A stretch of 64,000 nucleotides of DNA from NCBI RefSeq assembly GCF_013167955.1, contig NZ_BLWF01000004.1, positions 186,001 through 250,000 on the forward strand, read 5' to 3'. Below the pieces are notes generated by a model. That model was not told the DNA's origin. It saw nothing but the letters and a program-made list of their open reading frames with translations, and ran no database searches. Below, piece after piece: positions 12,419 through 17,634 of this stretch. The translations under genes and the position numbers were made by a program. Position 1 is the stretch's first letter, and each line of letters starts with the position of its first letter. This stretch comes from Thermanaeromonas sp. C210 (lineage in GTDB: Bacteria > Bacillota > DSM-521 > Neomoorellales > Neomoorellaceae).

Positions 12419-13894
12419 TTACCATGGAGTCCAGCGTCCTACCAACCGGTCCAGCTCGGGCTGGGGATAAAACTCTTTAAAGATGCGATAATAATAAAGT
12501 TCTTCCTTGGAATGGAGGGTAACTCCCGAAGTGACCCGGCCCTCGGCAGCAAACTCCTCGTCGGATATCTTACCGGCGGCCATCTCGGCCATTAACTCCG
12601 CCGACCCAGCGCCTTGGCTGAATTCGTCTTTGCGCCGGTCAACTATCTCTGGAGGTAACTCGGCCCTGAAGGCCTCCCGCAAAATCCACTTTTCTACCCC
12701 ATCCCGGCTGATCTTCCATTCCACCGGCAAAGAAGCTGCCAGCTCTACCACCTTATAGTCCATAAAAGGTAAAATACTGGTTAGGCCATAGGCCGACGTC
12801 ATGCGGTCCGCCCGCTGCAGTCCCATAGTGTGGGCGCTTTCCAGCAATCTTTTCATTTCTTGCTGCTGCTCCTGTCGGGTTTTGTTCTTTAAATAATGAT
12901 AACCGCCAAAGAGTTCATCACCGCCTTCTCCCATGAGCACATAATCCAGTCCGTGCTGCCTTGCCAAGCGGGCGGCCAGGTAATTGGGTACTGCACTTCG
13001 TACTAGGGACCAATCGAAGGACTCGAGGTGGTAAATTACCCTGGGAAGAACATCTTCTACTTCTTTCCTGCCGTAAACATACTCGTGATGCTCCAGCCCA
13101 AGATTCTGGGCCATCAACCTCGCATATTCCAGGTCCAAGCTTCCCTCGTAACCGACGGCAATGCTCCGGATATCCGCACCCAAGCTCCGGGCTACAGCGG
13201 CTACAATGCTGCTGTCGAGGCCACCGCTGAGTAAAATACCGACTTTGCCCTTGGCAGGCAAACATCTAGCTACGGCTTCTCTTAGAACATCACGCAGGCG
13301 GGAACAGGCTTCCTGCCAAGAAAACGGTGTAGCCGCATTTCCTTCTTCACCTTCTTCAGGGTTAAAACGTACCAGGCCTTCCCGCGGGTGAAAATAGTGG
13401 CCGGGAGGGAAAACTCCTATCCCCTCGCACCTGTTGATCAGAGCTTTTATCTCGGAGGCGAAGTATAAGGCCTGGCCTTTCCGCCCCCAATAAAGGGGCT
13501 TTATGCCGAACCGGTCCCTGGCCACAAGGAATTCCCGGGTCGGCAAATCCATACAAAGGGCGAACATCCCCCTTAACCGGCAGGAAAACCGGGGGCCCTC
13601 CCCTCGGTACAGGGTGAGAAGTTCCTGGGCCCTTAATCGGCGGTCAAAGGAACCCCCGTTATCACAACACGATAATAGTCCATCCAGCGCGATTATCGCG
13701 TCCCCTGCAGCATAAAAATTATCTTCTTCACCGCTATGACCAGTAGACGCATAACCTACTGCCCTCGGGGGAAATTCTGAATTCCCCACGCGCTGCCCGG
13801 CAGGTCCCCGGTGTTTTATGGCCGCTAACATTTCTAAAGCTCTACCCGCACCGCATTCTCCGTAAACTGCCACCAGCCCGCTCAAGGGAATCAT
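12419..13894 (-). CDS. Asparagine synthase-like protein without the glutaminase cysteine
   Basis: A 491-residue AsnB-type protein. The N-terminal half resembles the class II glutamine amidotransferase fold, with IKHRGPAGQ and VARDRFGIKPLYWG. The C-terminal half is the ATP-pyrophosphatase synthase domain, with the PP-loop LLSGGLDSS (about 221-229) and EGGDELFGGY. Normal AsnB starts MCGI, with Cys as residue 1 of the mature enzyme. Here the N-terminus reads MIPLSGLVAVYG and no cysteine can be placed there, so glutamine hydrolysis should be absent. It may use ammonia, another amine, or make an amide other than asparagine. It lies 73 bp after the osmolyte-binding protein, in the same direction, so it may be an osmoadaptive amide synthase. 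That last point is speculation. Confidence 0.85.
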   Translation of the reverse strand: MIPLSGLVAVYGECGAGRALEMLAAIKHRGPAGQRVGNSEFPPRAVGYASTGHSGEEDNFYAAGDAIIALDGLLSCCDNGGSFDRRLRAQELLTLYRGEGPRFSCRLRGMFALCMDLPTREFLVARDRFGIKPLYWGRKGQALYFASEIKALINRCEGIGVFPPGHYFHPREGLVRFNPEEGEEGNAATPFSWQEACSRLRDVLREAVARCLPAKGKVGILLSGGLDSSIVAAVARSLGADIRSIAVGYEGSLDLEYARLMAQNLGLEHHEYVYGRKEVEDVLPRVIYHLESFDWSLVRSAVPNYLAARLARQHGLDYVLMGEGGDELFGGYHYLKNKTRQEQQQEMKRLLESAHTMGLQRADRMTSAYGLTSILPFMDYKVVELAASLPVEWKISRDGVEKWILREAFRAELPPEIVDRRKDEFSQGAGSAELMAEMAAGKISDEEFAAEGRVTSGVTLHSKEELYYYRIFKEFYPQPELDRLVGRWTPW

Positions 13895-13967: not shown

Positions 13968-14948
13968 CTATCTATTTCTTCCTAATCTCTTTCCTTCGTT
14001 AATCACCCGCGCCAGGTCGCTAATGGTCTTAATGCCTAATGCTTCAGCGTCGGCCTTGCGCATCATGATGGTATAAGTGTTATCAAAGGGAGCGTAATCA
14101 AGCCAGACCAGGTGGTGCTTGGCAAGGTCTTCCTCCTTCACCCGGTTAAAACATTCTTCGGAATCCGTCAGGGGTTCCTCGTGCCCTAAGTGAACCAACC
14201 ATGCCGTGCCGGTGTACTCCCAGTAAACATCAATCTCCCCGGTGGTCAGCGCTTTGCGTACAACTTCTGAACCGGCCAGGCCAGTGTTATCCACGGCTTC
14301 AAATCCTGCATCAGTAAGGACCTGCAGGGTCATGGCCCCAAGGATCAGCTGTTCAGTGAACTCCTTGGAGCCCACCACAATCTTACCTTTCGTGGGCGCC
14401 GGGGCCTCTTCCTTTATGAGGCCCTTCTCCAATAGCCACTGCCTCGCCACCTCTTTGGGGTCCTTGTTTTCTACATCCACCTGGGCGTTCAGGTTTATCA
14501 TGGTCTCGGTATCAAGGAGGGGGCTAATCTTACCCAAAATTTCTTCCAGTTCCGGGTAGCGATCTATAACCTCCTTGCGCAACACCGGCGCAGGGTTGTA
14601 CACGGGGAAAAATTTCTTGTCGTCCTCCAGGTTAACCAGATTAAAGGCAGCTATGCGTCCGTCAGTGGCAAACCCCATGGCCGCAGCTACTTGACCATCT
14701 TTTAATGCGCCATAGGTAACACCCAAATCCATAATCTTAATGTCGTCAAATTCAAAGCCGTAAATTTTAAGTAACTCGGGTAGACCGTCGGGCCGAACCG
14801 AGAACTCGTGATCAGTAGCAAAACTCCACTTGTCAATGGACCCCGGGGCCTGCTGCCCCTGCCCCCCGCTGCATCCGGACAATGTTCCGAGTACAAGCAA
14901 TAGGGCCATTAGCCATATTATTCCATATCTTGACATTAGTCGTCTCAT
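13968..14948 (-). CDS. Osmoprotectant ABC transporter substrate-binding protein, circularly permuted
   Basis: A 326-residue lipoprotein (lipobox LSGC near residue 26) of the OpuCC/OsmF family. Its halves are swapped. Residues ~40-178 (SFATDHEFSVRPDGLP ... VDVENKDPKEVARQWL) correspond to the C-terminal half of ordinary members. A short linker (EEAPAPT) follows, then residues ~188-326 (IVVGSKEFTEQLILGAM ... GIKTISDLARVINEG) correspond to the N-terminal half. Joined end to end, the permuted termini restore the normal order. Permutations between subfamilies of betaine-binding proteins (ProX versus OpuAC) are known. It follows two permeases and the ATPase in the operon. Likely ligands are glycine betaine, carnitine or choline. 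Confidence 0.88.
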   Translation of the reverse strand: MRRLMSRYGIIWLMALLLVLGTLSGCSGGQGQQAPGSIDKWSFATDHEFSVRPDGLPELLKIYGFEFDDIKIMDLGVTYGALKDGQVAAAMGFATDGRIAAFNLVNLEDDKKFFPVYNPAPVLRKEVIDRYPELEEILGKISPLLDTETMINLNAQVDVENKDPKEVARQWLLEKGLIKEEAPAPTKGKIVVGSKEFTEQLILGAMTLQVLTDAGFEAVDNTGLAGSEVVRKALTTGEIDVYWEYTGTAWLVHLGHEEPLTDSEECFNRVKEEDLAKHHLVWLDYAPFDNTYTIMMRKADAEALGIKTISDLARVINEGKRLGRNR

Positions 14949-15062: not shown

Positions 15063-15791
15063 TTACGTGGAAGCCCTAACCTTATCTTCCACCATACCCA
15101 GGAGATGATCACAAAGCATGGCCAGAAGGGCACTTAAAATACAACCCGTCAGCAGTAACTGAAGTCTGCGTACCACAATTCCGGTTACTATAAGGTGCCC
15201 AAACCCACCGGCTCCAATGAAGGTAGCCAGCGTGGCCGTTCCCACATTTACGACTACTGCCGTGCGGATACCAGCCATAATAATAGGGAAGGCCAAAGGT
15301 AGCTCAATGCGGAGCAGGACACGCCAGGGACGCATACCCATCCCCACGGCGGCCTCCCGAACTCCTTCCGGTACACTCATGATGCCGGCGTACGTATTGC
15401 GCAGGATGGGCAAAAGGGAGTAGAGCCAGAGGGCAAAGAGGGCTGTGTTAAATCCCAGACCCAACACGGTAAAGGACAGAGCGATAACCGCAATACTGGG
15501 AATTGTTTGCCCTATATTCACCAGGTTCTCCAGGACCAGGCCCAGAAGGCGCAGCCGAGGCCGGCTAATAAGGATACCAAGGGGCAACGCCGTAGCCGTC
15601 GCCAGAAGGGAAGATATGACAACCATGCTTACGTGCTGTACAGCCAGGACGGCGAGGTGATCATAGGTGAGCACACGGGCGGCCATGGCGCTCCCAGGAT
15701 TTTCCACAAAGTACACGGCTGCAGCAACACAGCCCCCTACGAACAGCAGGGGTGGCAACAACTTTCGAACCCAAGACAGCTTAAGACCCAT
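15063..15791 (-). CDS. Osmoprotectant ABC transporter permease (OpuCB/OpuCD type)
   Basis: A 242-residue membrane permease with about six hydrophobic segments. The coupling loop is visible as VREAAVGMGMRPWRVLLRIELP (near 140-162) and the family stretch GGFGHLIVTGI near 195. It is the second permease of the operon; the other starts at 17553. Its start overlaps the end of the ATPase gene by 11 nt, so the two are co-translated. OpuC systems normally use two different permeases, which fits. Confidence 0.9.
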   Translation of the reverse strand: MGLKLSWVRKLLPPLLFVGGCVAAAVYFVENPGSAMAARVLTYDHLAVLAVQHVSMVVISSLLATATALPLGILISRPRLRLLGLVLENLVNIGQTIPSIAVIALSFTVLGLGFNTALFALWLYSLLPILRNTYAGIMSVPEGVREAAVGMGMRPWRVLLRIELPLAFPIIMAGIRTAVVVNVGTATLATFIGAGGFGHLIVTGIVVRRLQLLLTGCILSALLAMLCDHLLGMVEDKVRAST

Positions 15792-16893
15792 TTTCCTTCA
15801 TCAACTCCAAGAGATAGCCAAAGGTAATGACTCCTTGAAATTCCTTATTCCGGTTTAAAACTACTACATAACGCTCGCCGTAATTTAACATCGTGGAAAG
15901 GGCGTCGTAAAGGGTTGCATCCTCATCGGCCACGCTTTCCAGCGGATTTATGAGGTCCTTGAGGGCAGCCTGCCTGTTCTGGCGCAACAGTTCCTCCCTG
16001 TTGACAACCCCCTTGGGGCGGTTCAAGCCGTCCACTATAACGATTACCGGTAAGTTACCACCCTGTAGAATCTTTTTAGCTTCATCAAGGGAACAATTGG
16101 TTTGGGCCACGGGCACATCCTGCCGGGCCACATCCCCTGCTTTGACCAGGTGTAGCCTTTTCAGGGCACGATTGTGGCCGACCAGGGCTGCTACAAAGTC
16201 ATCTGCCGGTGCGCTCAGGAGCCGGTCCGGCGTATCATACTGCACCAGCTCGCCAGCCCGCATAACAGCAATCCTGTCACCCATTTTTATAGCTTCGTCT
16301 ATATCGTGGGTCACAAAGATGACAGTTTTATGCATTTTTTTTTGCAGGGAAAGAAATTCGTTCTGCAAGTGGGCCCTGGTAATGGGGTCTACCGCGCCGA
16401 AGGGCTCATCCATAAGCAATATGGGAGGATCGGCCGCCAATGCCCTGGCCACGCCTACCCGCTGTCGTTGCCCACCGCTTAAGTCCGCAGGTTTACGGTG
16501 CCGGTATACGGCAGGATCTAGCCCCACCAATTCCAGTAGCACGTCTACCCGCTGTTGTATTTTATCCGCCGCCCAACCCTTTTCCCTGGGCACAGTAGCA
16601 ATATTCTCGGCAATGGTCATGTGAGGGAACAGCCCTATTTCCTGAATAACGTAGCCAATATCTTGACGCAATTTAATGGGGTCCACGGCGGTCACATCCT
16701 GGCCGTTCACATATATCTTCCCTTCAGTAGGCTCAATCAACCGGTTGATCATTTTCATAGTAGTAGTTTTACCGCAACCGGAAGGACCTACCAGTACACA
16801 TATTTCTCCTTCCCCGACTTCCATACTCAAATTTTTTACCGCCGGAACTTTTTGACGGGGAAACACCTTAGTAACACCTTCAAGCCTGATCAA
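15781..16893 (-). CDS. Osmoprotectant ABC transporter ATPase with CBS domains (OpuCA type)
   Basis: A 370-residue ATPase. Walker A GPSGCGKTT (about 37-45), Q-loop VIQEIGLFPHMT, signature LSGGQRQRVGVARAL and Walker B ILLMDEPFGAVDP are all present. The C-terminal part (about 250-365) contains two CBS-type repeats (GGNLPVIVIVDGLNRPKGVV; GERYVVVLNRNKEFQGVITF), which sense ionic strength or nucleotides in OpuA/OpuC. Gene order permease-ATPase-permease-binding protein matches opuC-type loci. Gating by ionic strength or c-di-AMP on the CBS domains is known for relatives only. Confidence 0.93.
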   Translation of the reverse strand: MIRLEGVTKVFPRQKVPAVKNLSMEVGEGEICVLVGPSGCGKTTTMKMINRLIEPTEGKIYVNGQDVTAVDPIKLRQDIGYVIQEIGLFPHMTIAENIATVPREKGWAADKIQQRVDVLLELVGLDPAVYRHRKPADLSGGQRQRVGVARALAADPPILLMDEPFGAVDPITRAHLQNEFLSLQKKMHKTVIFVTHDIDEAIKMGDRIAVMRAGELVQYDTPDRLLSAPADDFVAALVGHNRALKRLHLVKAGDVARQDVPVAQTNCSLDEAKKILQGGNLPVIVIVDGLNRPKGVVNREELLRQNRQAALKDLINPLESVADEDATLYDALSTMLNYGERYVVVLNRNKEFQGVITFGYLLELMKENGS

Positions 16894-16932: not shown

Positions 16933-17553
16933 TTAGCGGCGGGCCCGGCTTTCCGCTCGTTTCAGTAAGCCGTCGGCAAGTACGGCTAATACAGAGACAC
17001 AAAGGGCTCCCAGCAGAACAAGCTGCAGATTCCATTGGGAAATACCCCGGAAGATAAATTCACCTAACCCGCCGGCCCCAATATAAGAAGCGATTGCCGC
17101 AATCCCGACGATCATGACCACTGCGGTACGTATACCGGCCAGAATTACAGGCCAGGCCAGGGGAAGTTTTATGCGGCGTAAAATAGTAGTTTCCCTCATT
17201 CCCATGCCCTTCGCCGCCTCAATTATTGCCGGTTCGATTCCCTGGATACCTGCGTACGTGTTGCGCACAATGGGTAAAAGAGAGTAGAGGATTAGAGTGG
17301 CCACTCCCGTCTTGTAACCAATGCCAAACACCGGCAGTAAAAGGCCTAGCATGGCCAGACTGGGTATGGTCATAACGACCTGACAAAAGTACAGGACGGG
17401 GCCCGCCAGAAAGCGCCAATAAGTAATCATTACCCCCAGCGCCACCCCGACTATAACAGCAATACACACTGCCACAAGAACAATTAAGACATGTTCGCCC
17501 GTGGATTCCAGGATGTTATTCCACCGGCTGATGACTAATGACCAGAAACTCAT
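16933..17553 (-). CDS. Osmoprotectant ABC transporter permease, first gene of the operon
   Basis: About 206 residues, starting MSFWSLVISRWNNILEST at ATG 17553, with a purine-rich GGGGGAG about 11 nt upstream. The frame extends to 17625 through promoter sequence and is not expected to be translated. The coupling loop IEAAKGMGMRETTILRRIKLP and the segment GAGGLGEFIFRGI are typical of OpuCB/OpuCD. It is promoter-proximal and precedes the ATPase by about 40 bp. Confidence 0.88.
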   Translation of the reverse strand: MSFWSLVISRWNNILESTGEHVLIVLVAVCIAVIVGVALGVMITYWRFLAGPVLYFCQVVMTIPSLAMLGLLLPVFGIGYKTGVATLILYSLLPIVRNTYAGIQGIEPAIIEAAKGMGMRETTILRRIKLPLAWPVILAGIRTAVVMIVGIAAIASYIGAGGLGEFIFRGISQWNLQLVLLGALCVSVLAVLADGLLKRAESRARR

Positions 17554-17584
17554 GCCATCACCGTCTCCCCCAAAATAAAAAAGC

Positions 17585-17603
17585 CCTATAGTTATTCTAT
17601 AGG
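17585..17603. promoter_or_regulatory. palindrome over the -10 of the osmolyte operon
   Basis: A perfect inverted repeat CCTATAG-n5-CTATAGG covers the -10 element and its flanks. It is a good candidate operator, possibly for the neighbouring BusR-like protein. No operator consensus was available to test it. Confidence 0.5.
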
Positions 17604-17622
17604 AATTCGCACCGGGATGCAA
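17594..17622 (-). promoter_or_regulatory. sigma-A promoter of the osmolyte transporter operon
   Basis: Minus strand -35 TTGCAT (17617-17622) and -10 TAGAAT (17594-17599) with an exact 17-bp spacer, about 40 bp upstream of the first permease start. Dyads overlap both elements. Confidence 0.7.
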
Positions 17623-17634
17623 CAACTTATTGCA
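17618..17634. promoter_or_regulatory. palindrome over the -35 of the osmolyte operon
   Basis: Inverted repeat TGCAA-n7-TTGCA overlaps the -35 hexamer. With the CTATAG dyad on the -10 it gives two candidate operators about 32 bp apart, centre to centre, close to three helical turns. Confidence 0.4.

Follow-up and report, generated by a model that had tools for sequence, protein, structure and literature searches.

The gene at positions 13968-14948 of the window (the whole 64,000-nucleotide stretch of DNA analysed here) raises the question of how a substrate-binding protein came to carry the two halves of its fold in exchanged order, and whether this happened once or many times. The first-pass annotation placed the gene correctly without stating its strand, which we found to be the minus strand. 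Read from 14948 to 13968, the open reading frame (ORF) encodes 326 amino acids without interruption; the plus strand over the same interval contains 12 stops. From the ORF, profile matches and alignments with relatives in the PDB, we identified the product as a permuted substrate-binding lipoprotein of the OpuC/OsmF type. It begins with a signal peptide recognised from its sequence (aa 1-26; 14871-14948, minus strand) with the lipobox LSGC, in which G25 and C26 are invariant in 19 of 19 aligned permuted homologues.

The Pfam profile OpuAC (PF04069) matched the protein with an E value of 8e-64 and 216 bits (curated cut-off, 21.2), in two stretches whose order is swapped. Profile positions 114-255 align with aa 40-172, within a C-terminal half that here takes first place (aa 40-180; 14409-14831, minus strand), and profile positions 2-113 align downstream in the same ORF, with the N-terminal half in second place (aa 189-318; 13995-14384, minus strand). 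A linker (aa 179-189, KEEAPAPTKGK; 14382-14414, minus strand) bridges the former C- and N-termini, and the chain ends in a new C-terminal tail (aa 319-326; 13971-13994, minus strand) at the point where a normal member runs on into its C-half. Positions 4-136 of the NCBIfam OsmF profile align with aa 189-320, while residues 136-275 and 7-134 of AfProX align with aa 39-179 and with the downstream half, respectively. These alignments confirmed the original assignment of aa ~40-178 to the C-terminal half and of aa ~188-326 to the N-terminal half, and the protein does not contain the same half twice. Its halves thus run C-N, unlike the N-C order of the OpuC/OsmF-type family, so that it departs from the family order and would work as a family member with a rearranged chain; the C-N arrangement is far beyond chance. 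With the whole fold present once, rotated, and its old ends joined, the protein meets the criterion for a natural circular permutant. Against the NCBIfam OsmF equivalog (NF049931) it scored 201.5 bits, short of the 400 bits set as the curated threshold; permuted binding proteins of this kind come out divided, or with scores that are too low, in profile searches and annotation pipelines.

A gene of this form could in principle be an artefact of assembly or a frameshift that fused two normal genes, a concern raised by the metagenome bins among the relatives (many of these are metagenome-assembled genomes). However, independent assemblies contain the same rotated gene, at identities as low as 51%, and the single-contig genome G275 contains two copies of the permuted gene, each in a permuted operon. 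Single-contig genomes with permuted genes were also found in the OpuA branch (G076, G114 and G134). The frame is open, and a search for leftover half genes beside permuted genes found none. A frameshift or assembly join of two normal genes is therefore ruled out by the independent assemblies and single-contig genomes, and we give the artefact reading practically no credence.

To place the break within the fold, we used an AlphaFold2 model of the window protein built with 19 permuted homologues (pLDDT 91.7, pTM 0.83). The only full-length matches to this model in the PDB were to B. subtilis OpuAC (2B4L; Foldseek ranks 1-4), with which VIA-align superimposed 242-247 residues at Z 17-18. The relatives closest to it by sequence, which are of the OpuBC/OsmF type, matched the model over ~148 residues, or one half only, whereas a normal-order homologue used as a control (L131) matched OsmF, OpuBC and AfProX over their full length (E 2e-33). 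The protein therefore has an OpuC-branch sequence in an OpuAC-like chain order. The initial proposal of a complete fold in swapped order within the OpuC-type branch is upheld by the profiles, by alignment with PDB entries, by the predicted structure and by the relatives. The proposed position of the break inside lobe 2 was also borne out, as it falls in the stretch equivalent to lobe D2 of EgtU (residues 341-432; PMC9732360), and the predicted model agrees. The two-lobed clamp is predicted to fold normally, with lobe 1 now continuous and lobe 2 assembled from both chain ends, which would put the lipid anchor on lobe 2.

Residues of the aromatic cage have been described for AfProX and EgtU (PMC9732360). 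The AfProX cage residues Y63, Y111, Y190 and Y214 correspond to Y245, Y292, F93 (a Tyr to Phe change) and Y117 of the window protein, in which N290 lies at the base of the cage. R52, K195 and T248 correspond to AfProX R149, K13 and T66, which we take to be ligand-partner residues. R52, F93 and Y117 lie in the C-half, and K195, Y245, T248, N290 and Y292 in the N-half. Judged by alignment and without binding data, the ligand residues for which a counterpart could be assigned are retained.

The gene is the last on the minus strand in an intact operon of the OpuC type, with the ATPase and two permeases expected for the family. Upstream of it are a BPD_transp_1 permease (here PermY, 15063-15791), an OpuCA-like ATPase with two CBS domains (15781-16893) and a second BPD_transp_1 permease (here PermW, 16933-17625). 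This gene order is alike for permuted and normal genes, with the exception of L045, where the binding protein comes first. Compared with the closest relative, L037, dN/dS was 0.036 for the C-half and 0.029 for the N-half, so that strong purifying selection acts on each. The product would be a lipid-anchored binding protein of an OpuC-type ABC importer of the betaine, choline or carnitine type, with binding inferred. It could instead be a decaying or non-binding remnant, given the lack of functional data and the existence of a permuted subclade of 14 members without adjacent transporter genes. However, the clade of the window protein has an intact operon with dN/dS ~0.03 and has conserved both the lipobox and the ligand residues that were mapped, so we consider a remnant highly improbable. 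While no binding or transport data are available, we are confident that the gene encodes a functional quaternary-amine/osmolyte-binding protein whose fold is recurrently circularly permuted.

Several features of the surroundings of permuted genes were recorded separately. Directly downstream of the gene in the window is an asparagine-synthase-like gene (12419-13894, minus strand); a gene of this type also adjoins the permuted gene in L008/L037 and L009 and is nearby in L040 and L041. In the transporter-less subclade (L182:5360-8151 and L135:7354-10103, also L175, L177 and L187), the permuted gene is part of a conserved trio, between genes for a 249-aa membrane protein with no Pfam match and a PAP2-superfamily protein. 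The whole permuted operon of G275 is present in two adjacent copies (L136:7136-14596, minus strand), in which the transporter proteins are identical in the trimmed alignment and the binding proteins have diverged.

The swap is not a one-off but recurs many times at the same site. All proteins were rotated to one order before trees were built. A binding-protein tree of 92 OpuC-type proteins (39 permuted, 53 normal) required 8 order changes (7-8 in bootstraps), 5 of them forced because the branches concerned have good support, and the hypothesis that all permuted proteins form one clade was rejected (p=1.1e-4). When the halves of a 49-protein subset were treed separately, the N-half gave 10 changes and the C-half 7, with 6 forced in each. 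The tree of the neighbouring transporter genes, which contains no rotated sequence, gave 7 changes, all forced, and rejected one permuted clade with p=6e-33. Chain order has thus switched about 8 times among the OpuC-type relatives; the clade of the window protein itself has 13 members, all permuted. Swapping of halves between lineages was rejected as the source of this mixing, as the N-half and C-half trees agree, and so was transfer of the binding-protein gene alone, as the binding-protein tree itself requires ~8 switches. In every permuted protein tested, from the OpuC and OpuA branches, the break falls at PF04069 positions 112-121. Permutation among glycine-betaine-binding proteins has been reported from structures 2B4L, 1R9L and 1SW1 (PMC2395249), so that permutation between betaine-binding subfamilies was, as first remarked for this locus, already known. 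In open-access papers we came across no account of repeated switching inside a single branch, nor of a permuted and normal pair in the same genus; subscription journals were not covered.

The closest natural comparison was provided by such a pair from one genus, the permuted L046 (genome G450) and the normal L189 (genome G454). Upstream of the two genes, in the promoter region, 106 of 120 bases are identical, the signal-peptide sequences are near-identical and a recognisable downstream terminator is common to both, so that the core is rotated between shared ends. A promoter and terminator scan gave nothing above chance. The transporter genes of the pair are 85-89% identical and the halves of the binding proteins 78-81%. 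L046 also shares the junction GFIGDDP..MG.G.PVVVGSK and the tail GVPAP with the permuted L171, from which it is separated in the transporter tree, and some switches may therefore represent one event that was transferred or recombined. For this pair, transfer or recombination remains possible, given that the core is less alike than the transporter genes and that the junction resembles that of L171.

Both observations would also fit a single ancient permutation in which gene conversion or recombination from normal-order relatives overwrote both halves. However, the N-half, C-half and transporter trees independently yield the same sister pairs, and L046 has 84-88% aa identity to the gene of a congener but only 73-76% to the normal paralogue of its own genome. 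The position of the L045 binding-protein gene at the opposite end of its operon and the same recurrence in the OpuA branch also speak against a single permutation, which we regard as unlikely. We rate no higher a history in which the permuted order is old in the group and proteins returned to the normal order on many occasions. When gains and reversals cost the same, the tree gave 8 gains and no reversals, and the more distant OpuC-type relatives that were found all have the normal order; only when a gain was weighted at least three times a reversal did 1 gain and 13 reversals become cheapest. Because the cheapest history depends on this weighting, the direction of change is unsettled. Restoration of the normal order would still imply recurrent switching, and the number of order switches is large under either direction.

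Recurrent switching is also seen in the sister OpuA branch, where both orders are present among 119 genomes surveyed from the phylum; the OpuA-type protein beside L043, for example, has the normal order. A tree of 48 OpuA-type sequences (13 permuted) required 7 order changes, 5 of them forced. Removal of two long branches left the count the same, and one permuted clade was rejected (p=6e-5).

The first-pass annotation favoured a tandem duplication with loss of both outer halves as the origin of the permutation and proposed a search for tandem-fused intermediates in related genomes. In the OpuC branch this search was negative, with no fused N-C-N-C or C-N-C arrangement among 113 ORFs. In the OpuA branch it was positive: an 868-aa ORF of G085 (L258:4262-6865, plus strand; the same ORF as L237) encodes an OpuA-type permease followed in frame by a tandem C-N-C-N, the middle of which is a complete normal-order domain. 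In addition, a related clade (L053 and L170) has separate normal binding-protein genes in tandem at the operon end, where the permuted gene lies. Along this route a gene would first be duplicated, in frame or in tandem, and the leading N-half and trailing C-half would then be lost. A tandem-duplication origin is an inference, although parts of the path exist in the L053/L170 tandems and the L258 fusion.

Other unusual ORFs came to light in these searches. A 642-aa candidate for a fusion proved by Pfam to be a kinase fusion (L169:3-1928, plus strand; G419 contig 190), in which a serine/threonine kinase domain and a hydrophobic stretch precede a complete normal-order OpuC-type binding domain; the product is possibly an osmolyte-sensing kinase. 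A 655-aa ORF of Actinomadura physcomitrii (L103:4528-6492, plus strand) has a recognisable OpuAC C-half only (profile 107-256, aa 504-648). Three Hormoscilla loci (L069, L087 and L089) contain two neighbouring normal-order OpuC-type genes, and L069 and L089 also have a degraded C-half fragment upstream.

Why the break should always fall at this site may lie in the internal symmetry of the fold. Binding proteins are thought to derive from a duplicated half-size precursor (PMC9815098). Both halves of the model have the same strand and helix order, and a profile comparison of the halves gave a weak in-register match (HH probability 10%, p 0.003). Similarity this weak does not prove at the sequence level that the halves are repeats. 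By inference, the break corresponds through pseudo-symmetry to the place of the normal chain ends, such that an order swap would keep both units intact and exchange which lobe is continuous. The swap may recur because the fold consists of two look-alike beta-alpha units in tandem whose order hardly matters. More broadly, we lean, by no great distance, towards the view that the PF04069 fold is made of two units that are interchangeable and can stand in either order with almost neutral effect, and that bacteria repeatedly flip it in place, within genera, by tandem duplication at the operon end and always at the pseudo-symmetric site, in the OpuC branch as well as in the OpuA branch. If this is true, circular permutation would be, for the PF04069 family, a recurrent and ongoing mode of evolution and not a rare accident.

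To our knowledge, natural permutations have usually been inferred as single old events, without a close unpermuted relative that shows their origin. Here there are many switches at one site, some of them within a genus, and a fused stage in a sister branch. With matched natural pairs it becomes possible to test directly whether permutation proceeds by duplication, what it costs to move the chain ends and what part two-unit symmetry plays. In biosensor design, binding proteins are routinely permuted, and the permuted proteins described here offer natural templates for this.

Among known systems, the nearest in sequence are the OpuC/OsmF-type proteins (PF04069, cluster F-III: AfProX, B. subtilis OpuBC/OpuCC, E. 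coli OsmF/YehZ and EgtUC), which share with the window protein the sequence family of both halves, the aromatic-cage and carboxylate ligand residues and the operon partners. They differ from it in having N-C order with chain ends in lobe 1, whereas the window protein has C-N order with ends in lobe 2. TpMglB-2 of Treponema pallidum, a glucose-binding protein that still binds its ligand (PMC4990184), is likewise a natural circularly permuted binding protein. However, it has a Type I fold with another break, it is described as one subclass, and the part that moved is poorly similar in sequence. B. subtilis OpuAC (2B4L), which is permuted relative to the ProX proteins (PMC2395249), has the same C-N chain order as the window protein, a match of topology and not of sequence membership, as it belongs to the OpuA branch and is only ~15% identical. 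Because the OpuA branch has its own normal-order members in related genomes, the same topology arose separately in the two branches.
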